A program made the position numbers and the translations under genes. Positions 1 to 15,528 of a DNA stretch of 64,000 nucleotides are shown one piece after another; within the stretch, counting starts at the first letter, position 1, and each line of letters starts with the position of its first letter. Source of the stretch: an uncultured Desulfobacter sp. (GTDB lineage Bacteria > Desulfobacterota > Desulfobacteria > Desulfobacterales > Desulfobacteraceae); the NCBI RefSeq assembly GCF_963665355.1, contig NZ_OY762229.1:5270001-5334000 (forward strand). The letters are read 5' to 3'. The notes under the pieces were generated by a model that saw only the letters and a list, made by a program, of their open reading frames with translations, was not told the origin of the DNA and ran no database searches.

Positions 1-1877
1 AGCAGATGGTCAACTCAGGTCGCCAGGCAGAGATGATGAAAACCATCTTGGACAAATATAAGGCCCTTGAGGAAAAAAGCCGATTTGTTTTGTGTGAGGG
101 CACTGATTTCGCAACAGGCTCCGAGGCCTTTGAATTTGATATAAATGCCGAAATTATCGCAGACCTGGGGTGCCCTGCCCTGGTGGTCTCAAATGGCTAT
201 GCAAAGGCTGCCGAACAGGTAATAAGCTCGTGCAGGCTTGTTGTGGAAAGCCTATGTCACAAGGGCGTAGATGTCCTGGCCGTGATGGTTAACCGGGTGG
301 CGCCCGACTCTTTGGACAGCCTGAAAATCGCTTTGGATCAGGCAATTGACCGACCCGAAGTCCTGGTTTATACCATTCCCGAAACCCAAGCGTTGAACCG
401 CCCTTCGTTCCGGGACCTGATTCCGGCCGTGGATGCCCAGGTCCTGTATGGTCAGCAGGCCCTGGAAAATCAGTTTGCAGAATGTGTCATCGCGGCCATG
501 CTGGCCCCCAATTTTCTGGAACATGTAAAAAAAGACTGCCTGGTGATCACTGCCGGGGATCGATCCAGCATTGTGATCACCTGTATAGCCTCCCGGCTTT
601 CCATGGCCTATCCCGATATTGCAGGCATCCTGATCACCGGAAGCATTCCCATTCCCGACTCCATCATTCGACTCATCCAGGGATGGAAGGACCTGCCGGT
701 CCCCATTCTCCAGACCCCCATGGATACCCATGCGGCGCTCAGGGCTGTTGACCATATCCACGGCAGGATTTCTCCCAAAGATCCCCAACGCATTGCCCTG
801 GCTCTAGGTATTTTTGAGGCCAATGTGGATGCAGGTCCTTTAAGGCAGCGTCTGGCAGCCAGGAAGTCGGTACGCATCACGCCGCAGATGTTTGAATACA
901 GCCTGATTGAGAAGGCCAAAAAAGATCGCCAGCATATTGTGCTGCCCGAAGGAAACAGTGACAGAATTCTTAAAGCGGCGGATATTCTTCTGCGGCGTTC
1001 ATTCTGCGATATTACCATTTTAGGCAAGTCTGACGCCGTTGAGCGCAGGGCCAAAGAACTGGGGCTCAACCTGTCCCAGGCCCGGATTATCCAGCCCGAC
1101 GCCAGTCCCTGGCTGGAGGATTATGCCCGGACCTATTTTGAATTGCGCAAACACAAGGGCGTGACCCTGGACTTGGCCAGGGACACCATGACAGACCCTT
1201 CGTATTTCGGCACCATGATGGTACAGAAAGGCAATGCCCACGGCATGGTGTCAGGCTCGGTGAACACCACGGCCCACACCATTCTTCCGGCATTCCAGAT
1301 TATCAAAACCCTGCCCGGCGCAACCATCGTCTCCTCTGTGTTCCTCATGTGCCTGAAAGACAGGGTACTGGTCTTTGGCGACTGCGCCGTCAACCCCAAC
1401 CCCACAGCATCCCAGCTGGCCGAAATTGCGGTGACGTCAGCCCAAACCGCATCCATTTTCGGCATTGAACCCCGTGTGGCCATGCTCTCCTATTCCACGG
1501 GATCTTCAGGAACGGGCGCTGATGTGGACAAGGTGATCCAGGCCACGGCAATGGCCCGGGAAAAGGCCCCGCACCTTCCCATTGAAGGCCCCATCCAATA
1601 TGATGCCGCCATTGACCCGTCCGTGGCCATGACCAAACTGCCCGATTCCCAGGTGGCCGGCCGGGCCACCGTATTTATTTTTCCGGATCTGAACACCGGG
1701 AACAACACCTATAAGGCTGTCCAGCGGGCCTCGGAAAAGGCTGTGGCCATCGGTCCCGTGCTCCAGGGACTGAAGCGGCCCATTAATGATTTAAGCAGGG
1801 GATGTACAGTGCCAGACATCATAAACACAGTGGCGATAACAGCCATCCAGGCCCAGGCCGTAAAAGCGCAAATTTAA
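1..1877 (+). CDS. pta: Phosphate acetyltransferase (5'-truncated by window edge)
   Basis: Interconverts acetyl-CoA and acetyl phosphate in the cytoplasm. The reading frame is already open at base 1, and the first Met (base 6) aligns internally in long-form Pta such as the 714-residue E. coli enzyme. Roughly 90 N-terminal residues, including the P-loop-like start, therefore lie upstream of the window. Visible parts, numbered from the Met at base 6, are the rest of the N-terminal domain, a DRTGG-type middle domain (about 140-245) and the catalytic PTA/PTB domain (about 295-620). The catalytic domain carries the conserved SYSTGSSGTGADV stretch near 494 and NDLSRG near 593. Its partner acetate kinase is not in view. 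The convergent radical SAM gene ends five bases after its stop. Identity is very sure; the true start is unseen. Confidence 0.96.
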   Translation, partial: QMVNSGRQAEMMKTILDKYKALEEKSRFVLCEGTDFATGSEAFEFDINAEIIADLGCPALVVSNGYAKAAEQVISSCRLVVESLCHKGVDVLAVMVNRVAPDSLDSLKIALDQAIDRPEVLVYTIPETQALNRPSFRDLIPAVDAQVLYGQQALENQFAECVIAAMLAPNFLEHVKKDCLVITAGDRSSIVITCIASRLSMAYPDIAGILITGSIPIPDSIIRLIQGWKDLPVPILQTPMDTHAALRAVDHIHGRISPKDPQRIALALGIFEANVDAGPLRQRLAARKSVRITPQMFEYSLIEKAKKDRQHIVLPEGNSDRILKAADILLRRSFCDITILGKSDAVERRAKELGLNLSQARIIQPDASPWLEDYARTYFELRKHKGVTLDLARDTMTDPSYFGTMMVQKGNAHGMVSGSVNTTAHTILPAFQIIKTLPGATIVSSVFLMCLKDRVLVFGDCAVNPNPTASQLAEIAVTSAQTASIFGIEPRVAMLSYSTGSSGTGADVDKVIQATAMAREKAPHLPIEGPIQYDAAIDPSVAMTKLPDSQVAGRATVFIFPDLNTGNNTYKAVQRASEKAVAIGPVLQGLKRPINDLSRGCTVPDIINTVAITAIQAQAVKAQI

Positions 1878-1882
1878 GAAAA

Positions 1883-2899
1883 TCATAAAAGGCCGTGTAA
1901 GATACGGTAATCCTGTGTCTGGTTGTACTGCTCAATGGCATCGACCAGATGCTCTTCTCCTGCACGCAGAAAGGACCCGCCGGGCACCGCAAGCCCTTCA
2001 TCGGACAGGCCGATAAAGATGGAAATGGGTTTTCCGGCGGCATGGAGGGCCGCAGCAATGACATCCTTTAAAAACGGAGGGCTGTACGTCCCGTTCAGGA
2101 ACGCGGTTTCAATGGCCGTACCTGTTGCCACATAGGTTGGATTCAGGTGCATATTGATTGTGGCATCATACCCGGCCGATATTTGAGACAGGTAGTCAAT
2201 GGCGTTTTTGATATCAAGGACAGCCTCTTCATCGGCCATGCCAGGCACCGGTTTTTGCATAAAATAGCATTTGAGAAGGTAATTATAAGGGGCGATTCTT
2301 TTTACCAGTGTTTCAAAAACAGTTAAAGACAAGCCCTTGTCAAATACGTCGTTTCGGATATGTTCGTCAAAGGCCTCAAACCCGATGGCGATTTCAAGAG
2401 CCGTGGGTGTATCCCCTTCGGCAAGGGCGCGGGCAATAAACTCCAGCTCTTCGGGCTCCACATATTCGGGACGGGTTTCCATGGAAAGGACCGCAAGGTT
2501 GGGCATGTTCTGGTTGAGACGTGCAATCAGATACATCAGCCCAGTGGAGGAAAATGTATCCTGGTCCAGAATGGATCCGTTGTTGCTTATGATCACTTTT
2601 TTTATCTCTTCGCGTTTGGAAAAGACCTTTGGGTCCGCCATCAGCGTGTCAATCTGGGCCATGATGAAATTATAGGGCACATGGGTTGAAGAGACTTGGG
2701 AGGGCAGATTGCAGCCAAGACAGCGGGACCACCGGCACGCCTGGGTGTAAAACACCACAAAAAGAATCAGCCCTTCCGTGGCGTTCTGAAACCACATTTG
2801 TGCGGGCAGCGTTTCATCATGGTTGTCATTGAATGAATAGGTTTTTCCGGCTTTCCTGGACCCACTTAGAATCTGATGGGTCACTTTATTGTCTGGCAT
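1883..2899 (-). CDS. Radical SAM protein, last gene of the ABC/TelA/OmpA operon
   Basis: Predicted [4Fe-4S]/S-adenosylmethionine radical enzyme of about 338 residues. The cluster motif is CRWSRCLGC (C55, C60, C63), that is CX4CX2C rather than the classical CX3CX2C. This spacing and the surrounding sequence recall the RaSEA/TIGR01210-like branch, but the substrate cannot be read from the sequence. The frame extends five codons further to 2914. I prefer the ATG at 2899 because AGGAG lies seven bases before it. It follows the ATPase gene by less than 20 bases and is co-oriented with the whole operon, so it may act on the imported compound or on a tRNA. Family sure, function unknown. Confidence 0.8.
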   Translation of the reverse strand: MPDNKVTHQILSGSRKAGKTYSFNDNHDETLPAQMWFQNATEGLILFVVFYTQACRWSRCLGCNLPSQVSSTHVPYNFIMAQIDTLMADPKVFSKREEIKKVIISNNGSILDQDTFSSTGLMYLIARLNQNMPNLAVLSMETRPEYVEPEELEFIARALAEGDTPTALEIAIGFEAFDEHIRNDVFDKGLSLTVFETLVKRIAPYNYLLKCYFMQKPVPGMADEEAVLDIKNAIDYLSQISAGYDATINMHLNPTYVATGTAIETAFLNGTYSPPFLKDVIAAALHAAGKPISIFIGLSDEGLAVPGGSFLRAGEEHLVDAIEQYNQTQDYRILHGLL

Positions 2900-2917
2900 G
2901 ATGCGCTCCTGCATTTG

Positions 2918-3826
2918 TTAATTTGAATGACTTTCCGGTGAATACTCTTCTTTTCGAAGGGTTCTAAATGAATTGGGGTGTCTTAGGTCAAAGTCTTTGG
3001 CATGCTGGCGGTACTCCGGGTCAAATCCCTGGTGCCTGACCATCTGAATGAGCTCGCCGAACTGTGCTTCTTTTTTGACGCAGGTGGGGTTGGCATGCCT
3101 TGACAGTTCAAAGTCGCAAACCAGTTTTGCCCCCCGTGACGGATCGTCTTGGCCCCGGTCATCGGTGTAGTACTGGGAGAGCACCAGAAGCCTTGTGCCT
3201 AAGAATGCCGCCTCCTCCAGATCGTGGGTGACAAAAAATATGGTCATTCCCAGTTCCTCCCACAGTTCAAGGAGAAACATCTGCATGCTCTCCCGGGTAC
3301 CCGGATCAAGGGCGCCAAACGGTTCATCCATGAGAAGAATCCGGGGTTTCATGATTAAAGACTGGGCAATGGCAACCCGCTGACGCATTCCGCCGGACAG
3401 TTCATGGGGGTATTTGTTCAGGTGATCCTTAAGCCGGACCTTTTCAAGATAAAAAACCGCCTCATCCGTCAGGATTTTCTTTCTTTTCCGCCGCTCAAAG
3501 AATCCCAGGCTTAAATTGGACCCGGCCATGACATTTTCAATGACCGTAAGATGGGGAAACAAAGAGTATTTCTGATAGACAATGCCCCTGGTCTTATCCG
3601 GAAAGCCCGGGAATTTGCCGTCAATCAGCAGGGTGCCGGCCGAAGGAAATTCCTGCCCGAGAATCAGCCGCAGCAAGGTGGATTTGCCGCATCCGCTGGG
3701 ACCGACCAGGGTGATCAGTTCTTTTGGTGTCACAGCCAGGTCGATATCGTCCAGTATGGTTTTTCTGCCGTATCTTTTATAAATGTTTTCAAGATATAAG
3801 AGGCTGTTTTTCTGCAATTGAGTCAT
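2918..3826 (-). CDS. ABC transporter ATP-binding protein, NitT/TauT type
   Basis: Cytoplasmic ATPase of an importer of the nitrate/sulfonate/taurine class, 302 residues. Walker A GPSGCGKST is at 42-50, the signature LSGGMRQR near 144 and Walker B ILLMDEPFGALD near 165, followed by the switch His in VTHDLEEA; all catalytic motifs are intact. The C-terminal 60 residues extend past the usual SsuB/TauB end and are charged. AAGGATG precedes the ATG. It sits directly downstream of the permease and substrate-binding protein genes and completes one importer. The substrate is inferred only from the binding protein, which resembles the urea-carboxylase-associated family. Confidence 0.93.
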   Translation of the reverse strand: MTQLQKNSLLYLENIYKRYGRKTILDDIDLAVTPKELITLVGPSGCGKSTLLRLILGQEFPSAGTLLIDGKFPGFPDKTRGIVYQKYSLFPHLTVIENVMAGSNLSLGFFERRKRKKILTDEAVFYLEKVRLKDHLNKYPHELSGGMRQRVAIAQSLIMKPRILLMDEPFGALDPGTRESMQMFLLELWEELGMTIFFVTHDLEEAAFLGTRLLVLSQYYTDDRGQDDPSRGAKLVCDFELSRHANPTCVKKEAQFGELIQMVRHQGFDPEYRQHAKDFDLRHPNSFRTLRKEEYSPESHSN

Positions 3827-3849
3827 GGGGCATCCTTAAATCTGCAATC

Positions 3850-4731
3850 TTATTCTCTGGCCACAAGATACCACCCATACCTGTAACGGACAATGGATTT
3901 AAGCCCCCAGTCGATGAGAAGACCGATCAGAACGATCCAAAGAACATAGGGGATGATCATATCCATGGCCAGATAGCGCCTGACCAGGAAAACCCGGTAT
4001 CCCAGGCCGGAGGTGGCGGCAATGGCTTCGGATGCGATCAGAAAAAGCCAGGCAGGCCCCATGTTGATCCGGATGGTATCTATGAGTTTGGGCATGATCT
4101 GGGGCACAATGACCCTGAAGGCAACGGCCGGCTGGGATGCCCCCAGTGTCAGCGACTTTATTATCTGCTCTTCGGGTATTCTGCTCACAGCAAGATAGAT
4201 GTCTCGGGAAATCATGGGAAAGGTGCCGATAAATATCAAGATCACCTTGGCCAGTTCATCCACGCCAAAGACAACGAAAAGAATCGGCAGAACAGCCAGA
4301 GGAGGGATAATCGACACAAATGTGGTAAAGGGTAACAGCAGCTTTCTGATACCCGGCAACAGTCCCAGATGAAGCCCTAAAAACAGGCCGCACAGGGCCG
4401 ATGCCGACAACCCGATACCGATTCGTTTTAAACTTACCGCCGTATCGGTCCACAATTGATACTCACCGGTTCTTTTATTTTGCTCAAACGCCGCCCGTTT
4501 CATTGCCGTTGCCATTTGGGTGATGGAGGGAAGGATTTTATCGGACGGATTTTTTTTGTGCCGTATATCTGAAGAGAGCATATAAATACAGATCAGAAAA
4601 ATAAAAGGAATCAGGACAAGGAACCAGGAAAGCGGCACCGAAGGTTTGGCATGCAACCCTAAAAACTGGGGAATTCTTGCTATGGCAATCGTTTTATCGT
4701 TTGTCGTTGCCTTCTTGCTATCCATGGGCAT
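3850..4731 (-). CDS. ABC transporter permease, NitT/TauT type
   Basis: Inner-membrane permease of the BPD_transp_1 family, about 291-293 residues. Five or six hydrophobic segments are visible. The cytoplasmic EAA coupling loop lies in the second half (EEQIIKSLTLGASQP followed by VIVPQIMP), where it contacts the ATPase. The N-terminal 30 residues are a polar cytoplasmic leader. The frame starts at 4731, but AGGA sits seven bases before a second in-frame ATG at 4725 (MDSKKA) and almost on top of the first, so 4725 is the likelier start. It is spaced tightly between the binding protein and ATPase genes. Confidence 0.92.
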   Translation of the reverse strand: MPMDSKKATTNDKTIAIARIPQFLGLHAKPSVPLSWFLVLIPFIFLICIYMLSSDIRHKKNPSDKILPSITQMATAMKRAAFEQNKRTGEYQLWTDTAVSLKRIGIGLSASALCGLFLGLHLGLLPGIRKLLLPFTTFVSIIPPLAVLPILFVVFGVDELAKVILIFIGTFPMISRDIYLAVSRIPEEQIIKSLTLGASQPAVAFRVIVPQIMPKLIDTIRINMGPAWLFLIASEAIAATSGLGYRVFLVRRYLAMDMIIPYVLWIVLIGLLIDWGLKSIVRYRYGWYLVARE

Positions 4732-4734
4732 TTC

Positions 4735-5793
4735 CTAAAGCTTGTTTTCTGCGGCCATTTGCATAAATGAGGCATCAAAACGCAGTTTGATGTTGTTGCT
4801 CTCCCCGAGCACCGAGCCGTCGGGAAACACCATACCCACCAGATCTTTGTCCGGCGCACCGTTTCCGTACAGCCCATGGTCAAAACTGAAGGTTCTGACA
4901 TACTCCATGGTTTCCTTGAGCTTATCGCCTTTGGCAAATGCCACCGCATCCTGGGCAGAATAATACATATGGGTGGTTTTCAGCTGGGCTTTAAATTCGG
5001 CCAGGGTGCCGCCGGCGGCTTTTGCCATGGCATCGACGGCGTCCTTTCCCTCCTTGGTGTGGCTTGACATCACCTGCATGGCCTCAAACCAAGCACCGGT
5101 CAGGGCTTTTTTTAAATTCTCCGGAGCATCGCTTTGCACAACAAGGCAATCAATGATTTCACCGGGAATCCGGGAAGAATCAAACACCAGTTCGGCATCC
5201 TTGACATTCCTGACCTGCATGAGCGGAGGATTCCATGTGCAGACCGCGGCTTTGGAATCTTTTTCGGATTCCGTGATAAAAAGGCCTGCGATGTCTGCAT
5301 CACTGGTGTTCACAACGGTCAAATCCCGCTCCGTCATCTGGTTCATGTCCAGGGCCCGGGTCAACAGGTAGTGGGATACGGAAAGCTCCACAAGCCTGAC
5401 TTTTCGTCCTTTCATATCTTTTACGCTGGTGCCGTTTTTCAAAACAATGCCGTCATTGCCGTTGGAGAAATCACCGATAATCAGGACCGTAGAATCCACA
5501 CCCCCAACGCCGGGGATGGTCAATGCGTCCATATTGGTCATGGCACATCCGTCAAACTGCCCGGCGGTGTACATATTGATGCTTTCAATGTAATCGTTGA
5601 TGAGCACAATGTCGATTTTTTCAATGCCGTATTTTTTTGCCCATTTGTCCGCAATCCCCGACTCCTGGATAAAGGCCCAGGGTTCCCAGCCGGTATAGTG
5701 GGACCAGGCGATTTTATAGGTATTTTGGGCAAAAGCGGCAGTACTCATGCCGAAAATCAGAAGACATGCAAAGATAAAGAGTTGCTTTTTCAT
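4735..5793 (-). CDS. Periplasmic substrate-binding protein, urea-carboxylase-associated ABC type
   Basis: Secreted binding protein of 352 residues with a clear signal peptide (KKQLFIFACLLIFGM, cleavage near AFA-QN). The sequence closely matches what I know of the family named for its position near urea carboxylase genes (TIGR03427-like). Matching features are YTAGQFDGCAMTNMDALT, the NTSDADI segment and the C-terminal KLRFDASFMQMA ending. In that family the substrate is presumed to be urea or a related small amide, unproven here, and no urea carboxylase or allophanate hydrolase gene lies nearby. AAGGAG precedes the ATG. The permease and ATPase genes follow, and the TelA gene comes before it. 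Confidence 0.9.
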   Translation of the reverse strand: MKKQLFIFACLLIFGMSTAAFAQNTYKIAWSHYTGWEPWAFIQESGIADKWAKKYGIEKIDIVLINDYIESINMYTAGQFDGCAMTNMDALTIPGVGGVDSTVLIIGDFSNGNDGIVLKNGTSVKDMKGRKVRLVELSVSHYLLTRALDMNQMTERDLTVVNTSDADIAGLFITESEKDSKAAVCTWNPPLMQVRNVKDAELVFDSSRIPGEIIDCLVVQSDAPENLKKALTGAWFEAMQVMSSHTKEGKDAVDAMAKAAGGTLAEFKAQLKTTHMYYSAQDAVAFAKGDKLKETMEYVRTFSFDHGLYGNGAPDKDLVGMVFPDGSVLGESNNIKLRFDASFMQMAAENKL

Positions 5794-5804
5794 GTTTGAT
5801 CTCC

Positions 5805-7037
5805 TTATTTATCAAATTCCAAATAATCCACATCCAGGGAAATACTGGGAGCGGCCTTGTTTCCCTGTTCCATTTTTTGAATCAGATCGTCGGCTTCACC
5901 GCTCATACGCTCCATCTCCAGAATATTATTTGCCATCTGGGGAAGGGCTTCCTGCCTGAATTTTGAAATATCGGAAAGAGCGGCCTGGATATCGGAAAAG
6001 GCCTGTTTCAACGTATTGATATCCAGCTTGCTGCTTGCCGCATCTTTGTGTATGGCAGCCCCCTGGGTCTTCAGCTTGGCTGCGGTATCGGCAATAAGTT
6101 TGTTGGTGGTTTTGTTGATGGCGGAAATCTTATTCAGGACGATTTTCTGATTGGCAAGGGCCATGGCCACAACAACAGCTACGTTCAAGGCATTTGCCGT
6201 GACGTTTGTGGCCCGGGACACGCCGCGGATCAATTCCTTATTGTTGCGGATAATCAGTTCAATGGATAGAACGGCCTGCTGGGCCACGGCAAGCTGCTGC
6301 TGCAAATCCATAATCCGCTGGCGGATGGGAAACAGCAGTTCATCCTGAATAAACTGATATTTGGCGTCGTCCGATGGAATATCCCGTTCCAGGGCATAGC
6401 TCAGCTTGTGATCTATCAAAAGCCCCAGTTCAATGGCTTTTTTAAGCTTTTCCGTCAGCATCCTCATGTGTTTCTGGTCTTCGGTCAGGGTGATGTTGTC
6501 CCGTTTCAGCATGTCCGCGCCCTGCTCCAGGGACCTGAAAATCGCATCAAGCACGGTCTGGGAAGATTCAAACTGAAGAAAATATCGTTTCAACGGTGTG
6601 CCCATGCCCGGAATAAACCCCAGGGTTCTGGCAAACCAGCCCGGCTCAAAATCGAAACGGGCAGGATCAAGTTCTTCGACCTTCACATTCAATTCAACCA
6701 GGGCGTTGGCCACGTCACCGCCATCTTCTCCTTTGGCCATGAGTTTTCTTATGGGCTCCTTGAGCATGGCACTTCTAAGGGCAGCCTGTTTCTGGGTCTG
6801 GGCACCCAGATTTTCAACGGCAGCGATATTCTGGTTTTTAAGGTCAAGCTGGGTCGGATCTTCGGGATTCAGGGAGAGTACTTTTTGCAAAAACTGGTCT
6901 GCCATTTTTTCAAGGACCGGATCTGTTTTTTCAGGAAGGGAAACCGCTCCCGGATCAACCAGGCCCAAATCGTTTTGAACATCTGTTACGGCGGCAGTCT
7001 GCAGCTGAGCGCTTTCCGCCTGCGGGGTTAATGTCAT
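5805..7037 (-). CDS. telA: TelA-family protein (toxic anion resistance family)
   Basis: Cytoplasmic, largely helical protein of 410 residues matching the TelA/PF05816 pattern. Signs are the FIPGMGTPLKRYF segment near residue 145, long amphipathic helices, and the asparagine/alanine-rich NVTANALNVAVVVAMALANQK stretch near 275-295. TelA was named for tellurite resistance, but its biochemical role is unsettled; comparative genomics places it with Ter-type membrane stress systems that also use VWA proteins. A strong AGGAGG precedes the ATG. It lies between a membrane coiled-coil gene and the ABC transporter genes, an unusual association that suggests a regulatory or scaffold role for the transporter. 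Confidence 0.85.
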   Translation of the reverse strand: MTLTPQAESAQLQTAAVTDVQNDLGLVDPGAVSLPEKTDPVLEKMADQFLQKVLSLNPEDPTQLDLKNQNIAAVENLGAQTQKQAALRSAMLKEPIRKLMAKGEDGGDVANALVELNVKVEELDPARFDFEPGWFARTLGFIPGMGTPLKRYFLQFESSQTVLDAIFRSLEQGADMLKRDNITLTEDQKHMRMLTEKLKKAIELGLLIDHKLSYALERDIPSDDAKYQFIQDELLFPIRQRIMDLQQQLAVAQQAVLSIELIIRNNKELIRGVSRATNVTANALNVAVVVAMALANQKIVLNKISAINKTTNKLIADTAAKLKTQGAAIHKDAASSKLDINTLKQAFSDIQAALSDISKFRQEALPQMANNILEMERMSGEADDLIQKMEQGNKAAPSISLDVDYLEFDK

Positions 7038-7051
7038 GGGGGTCCTCCTTT

Positions 7052-7894
7052 TTATTTATTATATATGGGGGCTTGTCTGGCCAGTTCCTGCAATTGCGCC
7101 ATCGCAGACTCAAGATCGGTTTCGCCAAACGCAGATCCGGTTTTAAGCGATGAGACGGCAAATGTGGTTTCTTCCATTTTCGTCATGGCTTCCTCGTTTT
7201 TAGCAAGCAGATCATTGGCCAGCCCGATCTGTTCTTCCCAAAGAGACAGCCGTTTTTGAAGCGCTTCTATTTCTGTCAGGTCCGCTGCTTTCTTTTCAGT
7301 TTTTTCAGAAAGTTCATCAAGCTTTTGCCTGATGTATGACAAATCTATGCTGCTCAAGCTTTTAAGGGTTGCCGCAACCTGGCGCAGGTTATCCAGGGTT
7401 CCCAGGTACACTTGTTCTGCAGAGCCCAGAAACCGTGCAAAGGTCATTTCATTTGTGCTGAATTTTTCTTCCAGAAGATCCCTGACATTCTGGTATTTTA
7501 CTTTGATTTTACTAAATTGCTGAACGCCCTGAAGCGCCATGTCCCGGGCGCCCTCAACCGTTGAAAGGGCATTTAAGTCTTTTTCAAGGTTTTGCAGCAC
7601 CTCTTTTTCATGGGCCTTAAGCCTTTTATTCAGTTCATTGATGTATTGACCGGCAATGGCTTTATTTCTGAAAAAAATATTGATAACGGCATTGGCCAAA
7701 GAAAAGAAAACCGTTCCAGCCCCGAGAACACTTAAAAACGGCATGCCGAATAAAAATCCGGCAATTCCTGCAGGGATGCCGACAGCAGGGGGATAGAGCG
7801 TGAGCCAATGGGTCAAGCCGGTCTTAAATACCGCTTGATCAATGGCCTGTTTTGAATAGTCGTCTATTTGGGGTGGATTGTTTTGTTTTTGCAT
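7052..7894 (-). CDS. Membrane-anchored coiled-coil protein next to TelA
   Basis: I do not recognise a named family. The 280-residue protein has a short polar N-terminus, a hydrophobic hairpin at about 27-75 (two segments around GIPAGIAGFLFGMPFL and TVFFSLANAVINIFF), then about 200 residues of heptad-rich helix to the end. The expected topology is both ends in the cytoplasm with the coiled coil beside TelA. Only 14 bases separate its stop from the TelA start, so the pair is probably cotranslated, and the similar helical character suggests a physical partner. A loose comparison is XpaC-type proteins, which often neighbour telA elsewhere, but I cannot see convincing identity. Confidence 0.7.
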   Translation of the reverse strand: MQKQNNPPQIDDYSKQAIDQAVFKTGLTHWLTLYPPAVGIPAGIAGFLFGMPFLSVLGAGTVFFSLANAVINIFFRNKAIAGQYINELNKRLKAHEKEVLQNLEKDLNALSTVEGARDMALQGVQQFSKIKVKYQNVRDLLEEKFSTNEMTFARFLGSAEQVYLGTLDNLRQVAATLKSLSSIDLSYIRQKLDELSEKTEKKAADLTEIEALQKRLSLWEEQIGLANDLLAKNEEAMTKMEETTFAVSSLKTGSAFGETDLESAMAQLQELARQAPIYNK

Positions 7895-7912
7895 AACCCA
7901 GTACCCCCCGGC

Positions 7913-9478
7913 TTAAAAATCTTCACGCATAAGCACCAGCTCAACCCGGGGAAGACGGTATTCGTAAGATCGTTTGGATTCCCCGGCAAGTTGCGGCAAC
8001 GGGGCATCCCCGCCCATGCCCGTAACCCGAAGACGGTTCTTGTCGATACTGTATACAAGCGTCAGATATCGTTGTACAGCCCGGGCCCGGTTCAGGGACA
8101 GCTTGATGTTTTCATCCCGGTCCCCTCTGGTCCCGGTATGTCCGACAATGTTAACCCGGAAATTGGGATAGTGGCGCAAACGTTCCACAGCCTGGTCAAT
8201 CACCTGTTTTGACAGAAGGCTTAACGTATCAGCACCCTGCTGAAAAACAATGGGATCGACTTTTAAGGTGCCGACCTCTTTCAATTGATCCCATTCCCGG
8301 GCACTTAGCGCTGAAAATTTTGCCTCTAACGAGTCAATTTCAACGGGCCGACTGCCAGCCCCGGGGGAGGTAAAACCGGAGATCCCTTTTTGAAACAGCG
8401 TTTCCAGATAGGAGCTGTTGGTCAGCCGGTAAGGATCATCATCCGGAATGGGCAGTTCGTTGAAATCTTTGGCATGCTGTAGAATTTTTGCCGTGGAAGA
8501 GATCGTACTGACAAGTCCCTCATCGGCAAATGTGCCTGGTGCGGCAATGCCGAACCACTTCTCGCAGTTTTCATTAAAATTGACCCAGGTCACCCCTTTA
8601 AGCATGGATTCTATCTCATCATCCAAAAGCCCGGTTTCTGCTTTAACATGCTTTTTCAAAAGATCAGGCGACTCCTTATAGGTTTTAAGAGCTCTGAAAT
8701 AATTATTCATCACATGGAGAACCACGTCGGGATTCTTTTTTGCAAAGCTTCTGCTAACCACCAGGATATCGACAATCAACCGCTCCGTGTCTTCGGTTCC
8801 CAGCAGCTTGACAATGCCGTCATGGCGCAACGCCTTGGATACATCCGGTTCCCATAGAATCGCGATATCTGCTTTACCACTTGTCAATTTTTCCCTGGCA
8901 GCCTGGGATCCGTCCGTTTCAATGCGCAGTTTTCCCTGGGGAAGAAGTTCGGACACATTAAAGTGATCCGCAGCGGCCTTGGCCAGATGATGGCTGGGGC
9001 TGGACGGTGTAAATGCCACGTGAATACCGGTCTTTCCTTTCAGGTCAACCAGACTTTCCACTTTAGATTTATTGGCAAGTATCGCATCCCCCCCCTTTGA
9101 CTCGTCAATTACGCCGATGATAACGCCGGGGAAGTTGAGGTTATATGCATTCAGTATAAAAGAGTCCACCGTTGCCACCGCAAAATCAATATCCCCGTTC
9201 TTGAGGCGTTCCATCCGGGCGGCATAATCGGCATTGTCATCTTCGCAGACAAGTATCCACCCGCTACGTCGCATCAGTGCAATCATCTCGGGAGATCTTA
9301 AAGGGAAATACCCGATCCAGTTATCCATTGCAATGTGGATTTTTCCCTTTGTTTTTGTGGCATCACTGGTGGTTTTCTGGAACTTTTCCGTGAACACCGG
9401 CAGAAAAAACCATATCAGAAAAATAGCAGCCAGACTGATGATAAAAAGCAGCAGAGCCCCAATGATTTTCCTGTTCAA
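7913..9478 (-). CDS. Membrane-anchored substrate-binding domain fused to OmpA domain
   Basis: A 521-residue fusion. Residues 5-25 form an uncleaved-looking membrane anchor. Residues 47-330 resemble a NMT1/TauA-type periplasmic binding fold (NWIGYFPLRSPEM, then a DIDFAVATVDSF lobe and DLKGKTGIHVAF). Residues about 410-520 are an OmpA-C/MotB-like peptidoglycan-binding domain with GHTGTRGD and LSLNRARAVQRYL. The start codon is TTG, supported by AGGAGA nine bases upstream; no ATG is available there. The arrangement should hold a solute-binding domain between inner membrane and cell wall. It is a paralogue of the first gene of the operon. NCBI-style annotation calls such proteins substrate-binding/OmpA family; I know of no assigned function. 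Confidence 0.85.
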   Translation of the reverse strand: MNRKIIGALLLFIISLAAIFLIWFFLPVFTEKFQKTTSDATKTKGKIHIAMDNWIGYFPLRSPEMIALMRRSGWILVCEDDNADYAARMERLKNGDIDFAVATVDSFILNAYNLNFPGVIIGVIDESKGGDAILANKSKVESLVDLKGKTGIHVAFTPSSPSHHLAKAAADHFNVSELLPQGKLRIETDGSQAAREKLTSGKADIAILWEPDVSKALRHDGIVKLLGTEDTERLIVDILVVSRSFAKKNPDVVLHVMNNYFRALKTYKESPDLLKKHVKAETGLLDDEIESMLKGVTWVNFNENCEKWFGIAAPGTFADEGLVSTISSTAKILQHAKDFNELPIPDDDPYRLTNSSYLETLFQKGISGFTSPGAGSRPVEIDSLEAKFSALSAREWDQLKEVGTLKVDPIVFQQGADTLSLLSKQVIDQAVERLRHYPNFRVNIVGHTGTRGDRDENIKLSLNRARAVQRYLTLVYSIDKNRLRVTGMGGDAPLPQLAGESKRSYEYRLPRVELVLMREDF

Positions 9479-9508
9479 TGATATGATCTCCTGAAATTAC
9501 GCAATTTT

Positions 9509-10291
9509 TCAGTTCTGATGAAAGTCGGAAACATCAAAGGCCTCTGATTCGGCAAGGACTTCCTGCAACCCCTCTTCAAGCTGCTGGGGATTGTCTGCAG
9601 CCTTATACACGGTTCTTCCCGGAATGTTCAGGGAGTGGTCCGGACCGATACAAAAGCCGATGGTATGGATCTGTATGGGGGAATAGTCCAATATCCATGA
9701 GACAATTCTTGTGGGGTCCTCTCCGTCACTGGCTTCACCGTCGGTGACGACAACGATGGTGTACTCTCCATAGCCCAACTGCTTTTTGCCCTGGGCTTCC
9801 AGTTGAAGATATCCCTGCCGGATGGCAGAAAACAGTGGTGTCGCACCGCTGTTGAACGTTGCGTCAACTGCTGTCTTAAACTGGTCTCTATTGGCTTTTC
9901 CAAGGGGTATCCCTTCATAAATTTTGTTTTCCTGGAAAACAAGGAGTCCCAAATTGGCATCCCGGGGGACAAGATCGGCGAAATTTTTAAGCGATGTCTT
10001 TGCCACCTCCAGCTTGGGAAGCCCGTTTGAACAGTTGACTTCACCCATGGACCCGCTGCAGTCCAGGACAACATAATAGTTTTTTGCCGTCAGATCCTGC
10101 GCCACCTCAATGTGTTCATCCGATTCAACCTGTGGCCAGGCAGATTCCGTTGTCTCTTTGTTCTCATGTGCTGGCTCTAAGACGGCTGGATCTTTAGCCG
10201 TTTGTGTAGATTGTTGTGGCGGAGCCTGTTCACAGGCCACGCCTGTTACCATAGAGGCGAAGAGGTACAAAATCCCGATAAACCTTATCAT
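9509..10291 (-). CDS. VWA-domain lipoprotein with intact MIDAS
   Basis: Exported 260-residue protein. The N-terminus has a short hydrophobic stretch ending in GVAC-E (Cys20), a slightly atypical lipobox, so it is probably lipid-anchored. After a 50-residue acidic/proline linker comes a von Willebrand A domain. Its metal-ion-dependent adhesion site is complete: DCSGS near 76-80, the Thr of GATPLF near 151 and the Asp of VVTDGEASDGED near 181. MIDAS domains bind a divalent metal and protein ligands, so it may bridge the OmpA-fused binding proteins encoded on both sides. AAGGATG precedes the ATG, and both neighbouring genes are within about 30 bases. Confidence 0.87.
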   Translation of the reverse strand: MIRFIGILYLFASMVTGVACEQAPPQQSTQTAKDPAVLEPAHENKETTESAWPQVESDEHIEVAQDLTAKNYYVVLDCSGSMGEVNCSNGLPKLEVAKTSLKNFADLVPRDANLGLLVFQENKIYEGIPLGKANRDQFKTAVDATFNSGATPLFSAIRQGYLQLEAQGKKQLGYGEYTIVVVTDGEASDGEDPTRIVSWILDYSPIQIHTIGFCIGPDHSLNIPGRTVYKAADNPQQLEEGLQEVLAESEAFDVSDFHQN

Positions 10292-10308
10292 GACATCATC
10301 CTTATTTT

Positions 10309-12039
10309 TTATAATGGTTTAAATACGGATGTTTCCGCTTCGACCTGGATGATCCTGAACTCCACACGCATGTTATTCCGCCACTCCTGCTCGGTCCTGG
10401 GCGCGCACGGATCACTGCCGCAAATTCCGCTTTTCGGTTTTAGGATGCCGTGCCCCACCACTGCGAACTGGGTTTCATCGAGAATGATCCCCTTTGTCGT
10501 TGCATAGTCTATGACGCTGGCCCTGACGGCATTGGCCCGTGACAGGCTCAGATTTTTTGCCGATTGCTTGATGTTTCTCAGAACAATTTCAGATTGGCCC
10601 TGTTTTTTTGCCTTGAGATAGCCCAGGGGATCCGAGTGGCCCTCTATGGTAATAATTGCGCCGCCATAGGTCGCGGCAAGTTCTATGACTTTGTTGAAGG
10701 CATCCATATACATATCAGCATTGAACTGGTTCTGATTAGGCTGAAAATAGACCTCAAAGGAAAACAGCTCCCCTTCCTTCAGGGTGCCTTGCTGCTGTTT
10801 GCGCTGCACCACGGCGGCCACCTGGCCTGTATCAAATTTGGGAACAATCACGCCGGAGGTATCGGTAAGCCCTTTTTTAAATTCATTGTAGTCAAACCGG
10901 GCATGGTCAATGGAAACCCTTTTGGACAGAAGTCCGATGTTTACAAAGGCATCCTGAATCTGCGTTGTCAGGGTTGCCATATTCCTGGGATAGTTGGGAT
11001 CGCCAAAAAATTTCACGTTTCCGGGATATCCCGCATACTCACAGTCCGCATAAAGGGCCTGGGCATCGTCAACAGCTTCGGGGCTGTCTAAAAGAATCAG
11101 GGCAGCCCCTTTCATCATGTTTTTAAATTCACCCATCCGCGACTCTTTTTCTTTGTAGAGTTGCTGAAGTTGCTCTGCTGCCATCATAAGGCCGTGAACA
11201 AACTTTGTAACCTCTTCTCTATTTGACTTCATGTAATCGGAGCGGACCGCGTAGACATCACTGATAATACGGTTTGCCGTTTTGGTGGAGAGCAGAATTC
11301 TGGCGCCCCTGACCGATCCTTCGGACCCGGTTCCCACGTTGCCGTTGGAGGTGAGGACAAGGCCGTCGGGAATGATCATCATGGCGGCATCAACGTCCTG
11401 CTGATAAAACGCCTCCAGGGGGGTATTGTCCGAACCTGTCAGATCCTTTACCCATTTGATGTGAATATCGTTTAAAGACAGACCCGCATCCGCGATGATT
11501 TTAGACAGATAATAGACATGGGGCCCGTAGGCCTGCAGGGCAATGGTTTTTCCTTTCAGGTCGGCAGCAGTTTTAATCCCCTGTTTGACCACAACGCAAT
11601 CACCACCCGTGGACCAGGTATGCTGGTAAATAATTATTGGTTTTGTCCTGGGGTCCCGGGATAACACATCAGCCGCCATATTGATCATGCCGTAGGTTCC
11701 GCGAAGATACGGTGTGCCCCCCCGCATATAGGCTTCCACCTGGTTCTTGAAATCATCCTGCCTGACAAGTTCCAGGTGTAATCCTTTTTGATCGAAAATG
11801 CTGTTCCGGGACGTCTGGGCCGTGTTCCCATTTGCCAGAATAGTGGCCAGATCACCGCCCCAGGTAATCAGCGGGACCTGGACTACGCCGGTATTTATAA
11901 CAGGACCTACCGTTGTCTGAATGACTGTCGTTAATGGCGGTGCCTGGGTATACTGGACAGCTTGGGCAAGGGTGCCAATACTTAACCATAGAAATACAAA
12001 TAGAATCCACATCGCAATACGTGACATGTCTTTTTTCAT
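10309..12039 (-). CDS. Secreted substrate-binding domain fused to OmpA domain, first gene of operon
   Basis: A 576-residue exported fusion. The frame opens at 12090, but the signal peptide (MKKDMSRIAMWILFVFLW) begins at the ATG at 12039, preceded by AGAGGAAG. Residues roughly 30-390 form a TauA/phosphate-binding-like periplasmic fold (TWSTGGDCVVVKQG, DLKGKTIALQAYG). Residues about 430-570 are an OmpA-type peptidoglycan-binding domain with TIEGHSDPLGY and LSLSRANAVRASVI, plus a small Cys pair (GICGSDPC). Unlike its paralogue at 7913 it carries a cleavable-looking signal, so it is probably free in the periplasm and held by peptidoglycan. It is the promoter-proximal gene of the nine-gene operon, with its 5' UTR starting near 12105. 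Confidence 0.86.
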   Translation of the reverse strand: MKKDMSRIAMWILFVFLWLSIGTLAQAVQYTQAPPLTTVIQTTVGPVINTGVVQVPLITWGGDLATILANGNTAQTSRNSIFDQKGLHLELVRQDDFKNQVEAYMRGGTPYLRGTYGMINMAADVLSRDPRTKPIIIYQHTWSTGGDCVVVKQGIKTAADLKGKTIALQAYGPHVYYLSKIIADAGLSLNDIHIKWVKDLTGSDNTPLEAFYQQDVDAAMMIIPDGLVLTSNGNVGTGSEGSVRGARILLSTKTANRIISDVYAVRSDYMKSNREEVTKFVHGLMMAAEQLQQLYKEKESRMGEFKNMMKGAALILLDSPEAVDDAQALYADCEYAGYPGNVKFFGDPNYPRNMATLTTQIQDAFVNIGLLSKRVSIDHARFDYNEFKKGLTDTSGVIVPKFDTGQVAAVVQRKQQQGTLKEGELFSFEVYFQPNQNQFNADMYMDAFNKVIELAATYGGAIITIEGHSDPLGYLKAKKQGQSEIVLRNIKQSAKNLSLSRANAVRASVIDYATTKGIILDETQFAVVGHGILKPKSGICGSDPCAPRTEQEWRNNMRVEFRIIQVEAETSVFKPL

Positions 12040-12111
12040 AGTATCTTCCTCTGGATTGGAGTGGTGGCGGACAGCCCACCTGACGGGCATCTTTGTATCA
12101 TTCGCCCCAAA

Positions 12112-12140
12112 ACTATAACGACATAAGAGTATTATGTCAA
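12112..12140 (-). promoter_or_regulatory. Near-consensus sigma-70 promoter with palindromic operator candidate
   Basis: Read on the minus strand: -35 TTGACA (12140-12135), a 17-base spacer, then -10 TATAGT (12117-12112). This predicts a start near 12105 and a leader of about 65 bases before the ATG at 12039. The spacer contains a perfect 7-base inverted repeat, GACATAA-5-TTATGTC (12120-12138), where a repressor or dimeric activator could bind. It is the only convincing promoter seen for the operon running down to 1883. Confidence 0.75.
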
Positions 12141-12416: not shown

Positions 12417-13964
12417 TCAATCCGGTAACATAGGAGCCTGCTTCCTGGATAGTAACAGCTCCTGCCAATTTTTTACCCCCTTATAATTAACATGCCCGGT
12501 TCGGCCGTCATAAGCCATCACATAAAAGGATATATCTTTTTTACCAATATTTTCAGAACTCAAATACGTCAGCAGATTCTTTGAATTAAATAGAATACGA
12601 TTTATATATCCGGGACCGTAGGTAAAGACATGATACCCAGGGCCGGCATTTTCCACTAAAACAGCAACACCTTTCTTAGGACAGGGCATTGAAGAAATAT
12701 CCCGGATACTGTTTCTGTCTTTCATACTTAAATTTATCCAGTAACTTTTCCGGCGATCCGGACCAGGGGTAAATGTCAACCCATAGGCACATATCATAAT
12801 AATACTGCCGAAAAAGAACAAACGCGCAGTGGTCCGCTTTCCAGGCAGGATAATTTTATCCAGCATACAGGACATCAGAAAAGAAATAAACACAGACGGG
12901 ATATACAGATACAACCGGTGTTGCATATTGGCCATAGGTAAAACAGGTGCCAGGGAAATACCCGTACAGATGAGCAAGCAAAGCAAGACCGGTTTTTTCC
13001 TAAAAAAAAAATACAATGAACAAATCAGAACTAAGAAAAAAAGAATAACAATCAGGATAGAAGCCGTATCATACCCGCGGAAAACAAAATGAGAATTCAG
13101 GAAATTATAATATATGGATACGTACTTTAGAAACGACGCCCCGATAACCAAAGGATGAAAGGAATAGTAATACGGAGCATTAATATCAGTGGTCACGTTA
13201 GGCATCGCCCATTTCAGTTTCATGATATACCCGAAATAGGCTACCATTATTACGCAGGCAGTCAGGCAGAACACAGAGGGTCTAAATTTTGTAATATCTG
13301 CATATCTTTTTTGAGGATCAGATTTTATTTGAAGGAACATTTCGTAAAAAATAAAAATAACAGGCAGTACAATTGTCATTTCCTTGGTACGTAATGCCAG
13401 ATAATAAAAAATAATGCACAAGATCGAATGAAACACCCTGAAATTTTCTTTTGCCTTGTCGTGAATATCTATAAATAAGTTAATAGCAAGTAGATAAAAT
13501 GTGGCACCCACAAGATCAAATATAGCTGCAACCCACTGAACTGCCATGGTACTGTTGGGCCACATACCAAAAAGCAGGGAAGTGGACAGCGCGAGGGGAT
13601 AATTGTTTTTATCCCAGAATGATTGGGCCAGTTTTTTAGCCAGGGAAAAAACGATTAACGAATTAAAAAAATGCAGAAGAAGAAGTGAGGAATGGAAACA
13701 CACTGACTTAAAGCCGAACAAATTGAATAGGATTTTAATAAAGATAGCCCCCACAGGCCGGTCATTGTATACCTGTTTAGGCAGGAAATTGAAAATGTCA
13801 CGGACATTATTGAATTTTGCCACCCAAATCCAGAAATAATCATCCATGACAAAGCCGTTTCGAAAAGTAACCACCCAATAATGGCTAACAAACATAGCGA
13901 TACCGATAATAATAAAACAGATTATCTCTTTTCTGAGATCAGTTCTACCACACATGTTGCTCAA
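12417..13964 (-). CDS. Polytopic membrane glycosyltransferase-like protein (GT-C type), GtrC-like
   Basis: Inner-membrane protein of 515 residues with about ten or eleven hydrophobic segments and a C-terminal periplasmic tail of about 110 residues. The first periplasmic loop begins FVMDDYFW, an acidic pair typical of GT-C transferases that use polyprenyl-phosphate sugars. In position and design it fits the strain-specific GtrC slot of O-antigen modification cassettes, moving the sugar delivered by GtrA/GtrB onto a surface polymer; this is inference. The start is TTG (13964) with AGGAGG nine bases upstream; the next ATG is codon 4. Base composition is clearly AT-rich compared with the operon beyond 12.1 kb. 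Confidence 0.65.
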   Translation of the reverse strand: MSNMCGRTDLRKEIICFIIIGIAMFVSHYWVVTFRNGFVMDDYFWIWVAKFNNVRDIFNFLPKQVYNDRPVGAIFIKILFNLFGFKSVCFHSSLLLLHFFNSLIVFSLAKKLAQSFWDKNNYPLALSTSLLFGMWPNSTMAVQWVAAIFDLVGATFYLLAINLFIDIHDKAKENFRVFHSILCIIFYYLALRTKEMTIVLPVIFIFYEMFLQIKSDPQKRYADITKFRPSVFCLTACVIMVAYFGYIMKLKWAMPNVTTDINAPYYYSFHPLVIGASFLKYVSIYYNFLNSHFVFRGYDTASILIVILFFLVLICSLYFFFRKKPVLLCLLICTGISLAPVLPMANMQHRLYLYIPSVFISFLMSCMLDKIILPGKRTTARLFFFGSIIMICAYGLTFTPGPDRRKSYWINLSMKDRNSIRDISSMPCPKKGVAVLVENAGPGYHVFTYGPGYINRILFNSKNLLTYLSSENIGKKDISFYVMAYDGRTGHVNYKGVKNWQELLLSRKQAPMLPD

Positions 13965-13984
13965 CTTATCCTGCCCTCCTGAGG

Positions 13985-15145
13985 CTATCTGTCGGGAAGT
14001 ATTTGGTCTTTGCCCCTTTCATTAAAAATTGCTCTTGATCCCAGGAACAAATACGCGATGTTGTCGTTTTTCCGGATAAAATAATCTATCAGCACAGAAA
14101 ATCCGATGCCGAAAACGGTTTTATAGAACCAGATATCATGATTTTGCGCCACTAATTTCCGGACTTGATCACTGCTTCCATTGCCGGTCAGGTACAACAT
14201 TAAATAAAACAGGCGAAGCCCAATAAAATGAAAAAAAAGAATAGAAAGAGTTTTTGTCCCCAAATAGGATAAAAGGCCATTCAGAATTTTAATTTTTCCC
14301 AGGCAAACCGATACGAACCAGCTAAGATATATGCCGGCCAACGCGGCTATAAAATTGGTGCCGGGTGTATCAAAATATCGGGTAGGCCAGTTCATAGGTA
14401 TCCAGTTGATCCTACCGAAGAAATATATCAGGAATGCGGAAATGGGGAGAGCATAAGCATGGTTGATGTGAAGAAAAAAAACCTGGTGTTTATGGAACAA
14501 GAATCCAAGAATAAAGTAAATCAATGCATGGAGTGCTAAATCCGTCATGTAAGGATAATAAATTTTATGGGAATGCAAATAAAAGCAGAATATATAAACC
14601 GGGATGCATGCCAACAAAGTTATCCAGTCTTTAACATGGCATTTTTCTGCAAACCGTAACACCACAAAACCCATAACATTCGAAGAAAATAATACAACAA
14701 GGAACCATGTTGCGCCGCCTATATCCTGCGAAGAGGCATATTTAAAGAAGCGTCCCATCTTTAGTCCCAATTGGGAAAGCGTCATCACATCTTTATAAAA
14801 TACCGCTTCCAAGTCCAGACAATGCAGCATGTAGCGAAGCAGAAAAAAAGCGATATTAATGCAAAAATAAGGGATTATCAGAGATTGAAATTTTTTCCAT
14901 ATAAATTTCGGGAAGGATTTCTGATGGAAATTCGCCGTATAACCGGACAGAAAAAAAAAAGCTGGTATGTGGAACAGGTAAATCTCTGCATTGTAGGGGG
15001 TGGAGACATGTCCGGCAACAACCAAAAAAATTAATACAAACCGATTGATATCCACCCATGTAATTCGTTGAAGCACCGGCATCTGCTCCTGGTTCCACTT
15101 CATTCCAGCACGTTTTTCATTTTTTTTGTCAGGCATCTTGATCAT
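13985..15145 (-). CDS. Acyltransferase family 3 membrane protein (glycan O-acyltransferase)
   Basis: Integral membrane protein of about 386 residues with ten or so hydrophobic helices and the acyltransferase-3 N-terminal signature ITWVDINRFVLIFLVVAGH, whose His is the presumed catalytic residue. The HIPAFFFLSGY segment is also typical of the family. Such enzymes transfer acetyl or other short acyl groups to sugars of LPS, exopolysaccharide or Nod factors. The start overlaps the end of the GtrA gene; both 15145 and 15136 (MPDKKNE, overlapping the GtrA stop) are possible. Position between gtrA and the GT-C gene implies joint modification of the same polymer. Confidence 0.85.
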   Translation of the reverse strand: MIKMPDKKNEKRAGMKWNQEQMPVLQRITWVDINRFVLIFLVVAGHVSTPYNAEIYLFHIPAFFFLSGYTANFHQKSFPKFIWKKFQSLIIPYFCINIAFFLLRYMLHCLDLEAVFYKDVMTLSQLGLKMGRFFKYASSQDIGGATWFLVVLFSSNVMGFVVLRFAEKCHVKDWITLLACIPVYIFCFYLHSHKIYYPYMTDLALHALIYFILGFLFHKHQVFFLHINHAYALPISAFLIYFFGRINWIPMNWPTRYFDTPGTNFIAALAGIYLSWFVSVCLGKIKILNGLLSYLGTKTLSILFFHFIGLRLFYLMLYLTGNGSSDQVRKLVAQNHDIWFYKTVFGIGFSVLIDYFIRKNDNIAYLFLGSRAIFNERGKDQILPDR

Positions 15146-15524: not shown

Positions 15525-15528
15525 AAAA

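Follow-up and report, generated by a model that had tools for sequence, protein, structure and literature searches.

A TelA-encoding relative of the PspA-AAA-ABC-PBPB/OmpA operons: a possible wall-tethered, importer-coupled membrane-remodelling device

Operons that combine PspA/Snf7 proteins with an AAA+ ATPase, an ABC ATPase, a permease, and a PBPB-OmpA protein are described in a passage of Ravi et al. (2024; PMC11237479), and an excerpt of PMC8281802 presents PspA and Vipp1 as ESCRT-III-type membrane remodellers. In the relevant passage of PMC7824862, TelA and TerF-vWA are assigned to Ter-type systems. The excerpt of PMC12791056 describes an XpaC-TelA(YaaN) operon of Firmicutes, ties TelA to nisin and tellurite tolerance, cites the higher sensitivity of a Listeria TelA mutant to both compounds (Collins 2010), and gives the mode of action of TelA as not known. 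Here, we analyze a block of nine genes (positions 1883-12140, minus strand) in a 64,000 nt stretch of DNA from an uncultured Desulfobacter sp. (contig NZ_OY762229.1, positions 5,270,001 to 5,334,000; this whole stretch is called the window). The block encodes TelA together with an ABC importer, a free solute-binding protein (SBP), two fusions of a solute-binding domain with an OmpA domain (SBP-OmpA-1 and SBP-OmpA-2), a VWA protein, and a membrane-hairpin coiled-coil protein (CC). We tentatively read it as the TelA form of a widespread wall-tethered, importer-coupled membrane-remodelling device in which TelA would stand in for PspA, a reading to which we give nearly an even chance.

An ABC ATPase, a permease, an SBP-OmpA protein, and a membrane coil are shared with the operons in the passage of Ravi et al. 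The window differs from these in that TelA takes the place of PspA, no AAA+ ATPase was detected among the nine genes by Pfam and NCBIfam, and a VWA protein, a free SBP, and a second SBP-OmpA protein are added (that passage names one PBPB-OmpA protein). Judged by its sequence, the block is a variant of the PspA-AAA-ABC-PBPB/OmpA operon and not a member of it, and the operons in that passage match the PspA-like form of the present system part for part. In the main text of Ravi et al., the terms TelA, vWA, and substrate-binding have 0 occurrences. The Ter systems, as outlined in the passage of PMC7824862, share TelA and a VWA protein with the window; unlike them, the window block lacks nucleotide-signal genes, its VWA protein reads as exported, and an importer and SBP-OmpA proteins are present. 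The XpaC-TelA(YaaN) operon is similar insofar as TelA is paired with another gene product, but the excerpt of PMC12791056 names no ABC or SBP part. The original prediction, made from the sequence of the window, knew of no characterised system of this composition. Within the literature searched this stands for the TelA form, for which no paper was found in titles and abstract starts among the matches listed (most subscription papers and bioRxiv outside PMC were not covered); the PspA-bearing form had been noted by Ravi et al., the only paper among the matches listed that joined at least four of the PBPB, OmpA, PspA, and AAA terms.

The best clue to the mechanism, absent from the original prediction, is the alternation of TelA with a PspA-like protein. 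A genome-wide scan with the SBP-OmpA-1 alignment yielded 219 relatives, and the best 80 were analyzed. Because these were ranked by closeness to a TelA-type query, TelA-type loci are over-represented among the 80; ORFs (open reading frames) were labelled with models trained on the same loci, denominators are the loci with enough downstream sequence, and two loci (L106 and L110) have identical SBP-OmpA-1 proteins. At the 58 loci with at least 5 kb of downstream sequence, the fifth slot is occupied by TelA in 33 cases and by a PspA/ESCRT-III-like protein in 17, eight loci have neither, and both were found together at 0 loci. The TelA of the window scored 236.2 bits with PF05816 (gathering cut-off 30), and that of L081, which belongs to another subfamily (71.7 bits), was entered in the counts by hand. 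TelA sits behind the ABC genes at four loci (L070, L071, L074, and L075), and the ABC genes lie elsewhere around the block at L058, L083, L091, and L107. That TelA or the ABC genes are displaced in some lineages yet remain linked counts for a single system. L081 also carries an extra SBP-permease-ATPase set upstream of the operon.

The assignment of the PspA-like family comes from profile comparison with true PspA (90.9%, E 1.1e-6, 208 columns), for which the reversed control gave 5.8% and five column shuffles at most 0.3%. With the PspA/IM30 family PF04012, 4 of 18 members matched at E up to 0.1 (best 0.0033), all without reaching the cut-off; the single score at hand is 14.4 bits against a cut-off of 33.9. 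In the SBP-OmpA-1 tree the slot label changes twice, with one large TelA group and one TelA locus from Cyclobacteriaceae (L108) that is nested among PspA-type loci with starred support and whose VWA and SBP also cluster with the PspA type. PspA-type groups are found on both sides of the root, which is a midpoint root and was not inferred; our guess is that PspA preceded TelA in the slot. A second TelA gene of the window's own genome (L002, G000:C2:1585080) has as neighbours a gene for a 198 aa protein without a Pfam match and one for a DUF4178 protein; the passage on PspA operons in PMC11237479 likewise mentions DUF4178.

Judged by profile comparison, the coiled-coil proteins of the TelA form and the PspA form are one family, as CC matched the membrane coil of the PspA form (TMcc2) with 98.2% (E 2.8e-14). 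The window CC had no Pfam family at E 0.01, and at E up to 0.1 only Oleosin and RPC3_helical appeared; at the same threshold, there was no match to PF10112, which we take to be the Pfam family of XpaC. Its predicted model (predicted local distance difference test, pLDDT, 89.9) contains helices at residues 30-49 and 52-74, which are hydrophobic by eye and linked by a very short turn into a hairpin, followed by more helices. Seven basic and five acidic residues lie just after the hairpin, and three of each before it, a distribution that weakly suggests cytoplasmic ends. CC models matched 10 of 116 genomes of the order. The strong matches are eight places in seven genomes, seven of them in the operon and one (G019:C142) outside it; two weak matches correspond to the two distant operons described below, and one further match is in G100 (E 3.9e-4).

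Conservation of these genes together, on which the original prediction depended, was put to the test, and the idea survived; the block is a conserved system. VWA was present at 75/75 loci, SBP-OmpA-2 at 64/65, and CC at 60/62; constancy is lowest for the ABC genes, with the SBP at 46/55, the permease at 42/54, and the ATPase at 40/51. By record title, 71 of the 80 loci could be assigned to phyla or candidate phyla, 15 in all, most often to Thermodesulfobacteriota (20), Pseudomonadota (18), Acidobacteriota (8), and Verrucomicrobiota (7). Many of the 80 come from metagenome assemblies; the set also includes Desulfogranum japonicum, Rheinheimera baltica, Marinobacter sp. SS21, Vibrio fluminensis, Sulfidibacter corallicola, and Acanthopleuribacter pedis. 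In R. baltica DSM 14885 (L078), the operon extends from SBP-OmpA-1 to the ATPase. The system is rare: at E 1e-60, it was found in 3 of 395 genomes of the phylum sample, and in the window's genus one genome of 19 has it. In the order sample, any SBP-OmpA-2 match was obtained for 105/116 genomes, mostly to lone OmpA domains, so that a match was counted only if it covered both domains, in one piece or divided by a contig end (10/116). Eight of these ten have at least 60% identity (the own genome included) and two have 33-37%. Among the seven other close genomes, six have the operon neighbours where the contig permits, and one (G077) has SBP-OmpA-2 without operon neighbours on a contig of 9,980 bases and SBP-OmpA-1 at the end of another contig. 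The two distant operons have the same gene order, with a membrane coil of 259/261 aa for CC, a coil of 277/275 aa for TelA, and a gene for an AAA+ protein of 606 or 616 aa behind the ATPase. Convergent with the operon at one locus (L035, 4182-6503, plus strand) is a gene for a 773 aa protein that resembles an MscS-type mechanosensitive channel by eye.

In the device that we envisage, the wall-tethered SBP-OmpA-1, the membrane-anchored SBP-OmpA-2, and the MIDAS-bearing VWA protein (MIDAS, metal ion-dependent adhesion site) would surround the ABC importer and its free SBP in the periplasm, and the hairpin protein CC would gather a cytoplasmic scaffold beside the importer. In one form this scaffold would be a PspA/ESCRT-III-type polymer accompanied by an AAA+ ATPase; in the form found in the window it would be TelA. 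A ligand, or strain between wall and membrane, might alter the state of the SBPs, the VWA protein, and the importer, whereupon the scaffold would be recruited or released and would reshape or seal the membrane locally. Constancy is highest for CC and the exported VWA and SBP-OmpA proteins, and the cytoplasmic scaffold is exchangeable, as would befit a machine with its sensors outside and its site of action on the inner membrane face. It is this pattern of constancy, together with remodelling by PspA and Vipp1 and the phenotype of the Listeria TelA mutant, that leads us to a device with TelA in place of PspA. The alternation thus yields a direct, testable hypothesis, namely, that TelA acts on the membrane like PspA, and the system would be a single unit, conserved in many phyla, that combines membrane remodelling with solute transport and wall binding.

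Several observations weigh against this proposal. The profile comparison of TelA with PspA gave 0.8%, that is, no sequence kinship, and the predicted model of TelA (pLDDT 64.7) is too poor for comparison with the ESCRT-III fold. The AAA+ gene, which lies downstream on the same strand in 14/16 PspA-type loci with full flanks, lies nearby in 4/20 such TelA-type loci, and a search of the window's genome with the AAA+ protein of a relative gave only matches to the AAA domain (23-31% identity). Ten genomes were searched for TelA at E 0.001, comprising the eight with neither protein in the slot, G433, and the genome of L108 as a control. TelA was found in two, the control and the genome of L062 (G516), where it is encoded on another contig ahead of an SBP, a permease, and an ATPase. 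No TelA was found anywhere at this threshold in G433 or in the other seven genomes with neither protein, these seven being metagenome assemblies by title, so that the scaffold is not indispensable; at two of the loci concerned (L056 and L111), CC is also absent beside the anchor gene. The importer link is not strict either, because the permease is absent beside the operon at 12/54 loci and the ATPase at 11/51; in G093 and G038, TelA is followed by an SBP gene, and no permease or ATPase could be recognised in the contig sequence beyond. The canonical Asp of the OmpA motif is found in only 1/67 SBP-OmpA-2 proteins (Arg in 66/66). Finally, G019 has a second CC-like gene (L203, G019:C142 1322-3896; 162.5 bits) outside the operon. 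At L203, the CC-like gene is followed by a gene for a 571 aa VWA-like protein (40.9 bits) and the rest of the operon is absent; this is perhaps a related short system.

The same constancy pattern bears on another explanation, in which the block imports a nutrient or osmolyte and the additional solute-binding domains near wall and membrane raise capture, with TelA or PspA just guarding the membrane at high pump activity. The motifs of the window ATPase (ABC_tran, 110.4 bits), which is accompanied by a permease (BPD_transp_1, 67.9 bits), are intact, there are three TauA/SsuA-like binding domains, and two loci (L055 and L158) have neither TelA nor PspA and keep SBP, permease, and ATPase. However, a MIDAS protein, a hairpin coil, an AAA+ ATPase, and PspA would all be superfluous in a plain importer, and the ABC genes are missing more often than VWA and CC (VWA is present at every one of the 75 loci, the ATPase at 40 of 51). 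We consider this explanation unlikely.

A further explanation would be uptake of urea or guanidine, in keeping with the family name of the SBP. The SBP scored 492.7 bits with the NCBIfam model TIGR03427 (cut-off 333.9), the source of the urea label, for a family defined by genes adjoining urea carboxylase. The window SBP gene is not beside a urea carboxylase. Above the cut-off, SBPs of this family occur in 7/116 genomes of the order, six of which are operon genomes (the seventh, G011, has no other operon genes on its contig of 5,482 bases), versus 1/116 for the full urea carboxylase, found in the window's own genome. There, the urea/guanidine carboxylase cluster (C2:3517767-3521351) lies about 1.75 Mb from the operon and has its own SBP, permease, and ATPase genes. 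These are paralogous to those of the operon (173.2, 143.1, and 252.8 bits, respectively, with the operon models), which is in favour of such a system, but they have other neighbours in another place, and the SBP among them (158 bits) falls below the TIGR03427 cut-off. The carboxylase thus has a dedicated importer, and the operon SBP should not be called a urea protein by name. The Rfam scan of the window gave no family at the gathering score, which likewise speaks against urea or guanidine uptake. Urea as the substrate is not supported, the urea carboxylase label that the original prediction attached to this SBP class is no guide to the substrate, and we regard a urea or guanidine importer as very improbable. 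The carboxylase cluster (L156, G000:C2:3512000-3531000) also includes an allophanate-hydrolase-like gene and, by eye, two genes resembling those of associated proteins.

Among the exported parts, both fusions carry NMT1 and OmpA domains in Pfam. The OmpA domain of SBP-OmpA-2 scored 54.4 bits and that of SBP-OmpA-1 21.1 bits, below the cut-off of 27.2, and yet its motif residues are conserved: the canonical Asp in 80/80 and the Arg in 79/80 relatives. Asp and Arg of this motif have a role in wall binding. The original prediction had the OmpA domains fix both solute-binding modules to peptidoglycan; with the motif kept in SBP-OmpA-1 and the Asp missing from 66 of the 67 SBP-OmpA-2 proteins, this is half supported. 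The VWA domain of the VWA protein (42.1 bits) has nearly invariant MIDAS residues, kept in 77-78 of 78 relatives. The protein had been called a lipoprotein, a status that is not established, as a loose lipobox pattern is found in 29/78 VWA proteins and the window protein, which has a cysteine after its hydrophobic stretch, falls outside this pattern. As its sequence reads, it is exported rather than cytoplasmic, and it is probably anchored in the membrane by a lipid or a helix. An envelope-spanning assembly, as originally proposed, fits these parts; the contacts within it we infer.

Plasmids and phages also carry the operon. A relative of SBP-OmpA-1 (42-44% identity over at least 91%) is encoded in six Vibrio plasmid records, one of which, pIFO15640, has a complete operon in the order ATPase, SBP-OmpA-1, VWA, SBP-OmpA-2, CC, TelA, SBP, permease. 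Two further plasmids carry related genes. In Vibrio coralliilyticus (L164, 9887-12932), a distant SBP-OmpA-1 gene (196.7 bits) is followed by VWA (137.2 bits) and the others are absent; in Sphaerotilus sulfidivorans (L163, 4734-9450), TelA has on one side a gene for an exported-looking protein of 380 aa and on the other a gene for a protein of 551 aa. The latter ends in a VWA domain, and its N-terminal half has no Pfam match and is solute-binding-like by eye; this may be a related system of smaller size. In a set of 50,697 phage records, the 595 kb phage LR756511 has a complete PspA-type operon of eight genes in order, from SBP-OmpA-1 to the ATPase, flanked by genes strongly matching the phage families PHROG 15577 (336.8 bits) and PHROG 14336 (258.1 bits). 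Five IMG/VR contigs add relatives, three of which (L169, on a contig of 436 kb, L171, and L173) are complete with AAA+, and L171 and L173 share a layout. Five phage-side SBP-OmpA-1 proteins (L173 excluded) form one clade with starred support of 95, beside a PspA-type group of 12.

A smaller form is present in Bacillus phage G, with the permease gp243, the ATPase gp245, gp246, the PspA-like gp247, and the SBP-OmpA proteins gp249 and gp250. The order permease-ATPase-gp246-gp247-SBP-OmpA was found in 25/25 IMG/VR loci retrieved with gp249, which include phage G itself and several near-copies and contain 16 distinct gp247 sequences. The PspA-like coil of this minimal form matched PspA with 81.2% (reversed 3.4%, five shuffles at most 0.3%). 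An SBP-OmpA protein and a membrane coil are encoded in 15 Lak records, one of which, MK250019, has a gp246-like gene, the coil, SBP-OmpA, permease, and ATPase; the same five genes are found in the 735 kb phage LR756501. In a profile search of eight large phage records five matched, and those of 642, 636, and 635 kb gave no match. The versions of phage G and of the 595 kb, Lak, and 735 kb phages are loci L166, L167, L168, and L199, respectively. The main text of Al-Shayeb 2020 (PMC7162821) does not contain 'transporter', 'PspA', or 'OmpA', nor does that of PMC7824862 contain 'OmpA', 'PspA', or 'ABC transporter'; a passage of the Jug phages preprint (PMC12363816) describes a terD gene adjoining a pspA-like gene. 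Given its presence in phage G, Lak, and the 735 kb phage, some very large phages may come equipped with a machine of their own for envelope maintenance or exclusion. On a broader proposal, TelA, whose name refers to toxic anion resistance, would be a functional stand-in for the bacterial ESCRT-III protein PspA in a wall-anchored, importer-coupled membrane-remodelling machine that is mobile on plasmids, has been acquired by several lineages of very large phages, and in its smallest form consists of importer, PspA-like coil, and one SBP-OmpA; we consider this possible but on balance doubtful.

The occurrence on Vibrio plasmids and in huge phages also counts in favour of a Ter-type exclusion system, in which TelA and VWA structures beneath the membrane bar phage DNA or toxic compounds that are sensed by the binding proteins, and which phages would use against competitors. 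The Ter assignment of TelA and TerF-vWA mentioned above agrees with this, as does the occurrence in a single genome of the genus. Against it, the ten window proteins scanned include no Ter ligand-binding or signal genes (no TerB, TerC, or TerD), the VWA protein does not read as cytoplasmic, and most loci retain the ABC genes, so that we rate exclusion of this type as rather improbable.

The features of the block and the neighbouring gene at its 3' border are compiled in Table 1. As originally described, the nine genes are co-directed and tightly spaced, with gaps of 3, 23, 3, 11, 14, 18, 30, and 17 bases from the lowest-coordinate pair upward. The gene families named there were borne out by the Pfam and NCBIfam scan of the ten window proteins, with limits for the OmpA domain of SBP-OmpA-1, the radical SAM protein, and CC.

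Table 1. Features of the nine-gene block and its borders in the window
Feature	Position	Strand	Remarks
Sigma-70-like promoter, predicted	12112..12140	-	TTGACA-17-TATAGT, 11/12
SBP-OmpA-1	10309..12039	-	Signal peptide by eye, NMT1/SsuA-type solute-binding domain, OmpA-like domain with Asp and Arg
VWA protein	9509..10291	-	Complete MIDAS; probably membrane-anchored, by lipid or helix
SBP-OmpA-2	7913..9478	-	N-terminal hydrophobic anchor by eye, solute-binding domain, OmpA domain without canonical Asp; start TTG
CC, membrane-hairpin coiled-coil protein	7052..7894	-	Predicted structure and hydrophobicity by eye
TelA (PF05816)	5805..7037	-	Occupies slot of PspA-like protein in other phyla
SBP, free periplasmic solute-binding protein	4735..5793	-	TIGR03427 above cut-off
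ABC permease, TauC/SsuC-like	3850..4731	-	Pfam/NCBIfam
ABC ATPase	2918..3826	-	Walker A, signature, Walker B, and H-loop motifs
Radical SAM protein, accessory gene	1883..2914	-	Distant from TIGR01210, below cut-off
Phosphate acetyltransferase	6..1877	+	Convergent neighbour; marks 3' border of block

The longest ORF of SBP-OmpA-1 is 10309-12090; the ATG at 12039 is probably the start, because AGAGGAAG at 12052-12045 precedes it. The one strong promoter that had been claimed corresponds to the candidate in Table 1, the sole site of that quality within 14.5 kb; 60 shuffled sequences also yielded such sites (mean 0.27, maximum 3), and the case for the candidate is therefore its position and not its rarity. 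Terminator-like sites are at chance level (18 observed versus 18.9 expected), and among the matches listed none on the minus strand lies inside the gaps between the nine genes. A tRNA scan of the window found none. The radical SAM protein is nearest to TIGR01210 (RaSEA), and with 106.7 bits against a cut-off of 212.15 it does not belong to this family by the family's own rule. It is one of the nine families of the original prediction but is not core, its gene being present at 8/80 loci in varying positions.

Upstream of the operon, the region 12417-16491 has a G+C content of about 0.40 versus about 0.50 and was possibly acquired; by eye, its ORFs resemble genes for membrane proteins, an acyltransferase, and a glycosyltransferase. 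Farther away in the window, two giant plus-strand ORFs match a SpvB/TcdB-type component of a Tc toxin complex (19487-27319; 373 and 126.5 bits) and a TcA-type Tc toxin component with a TcB-binding domain (27593-37354; 404.8 bits).

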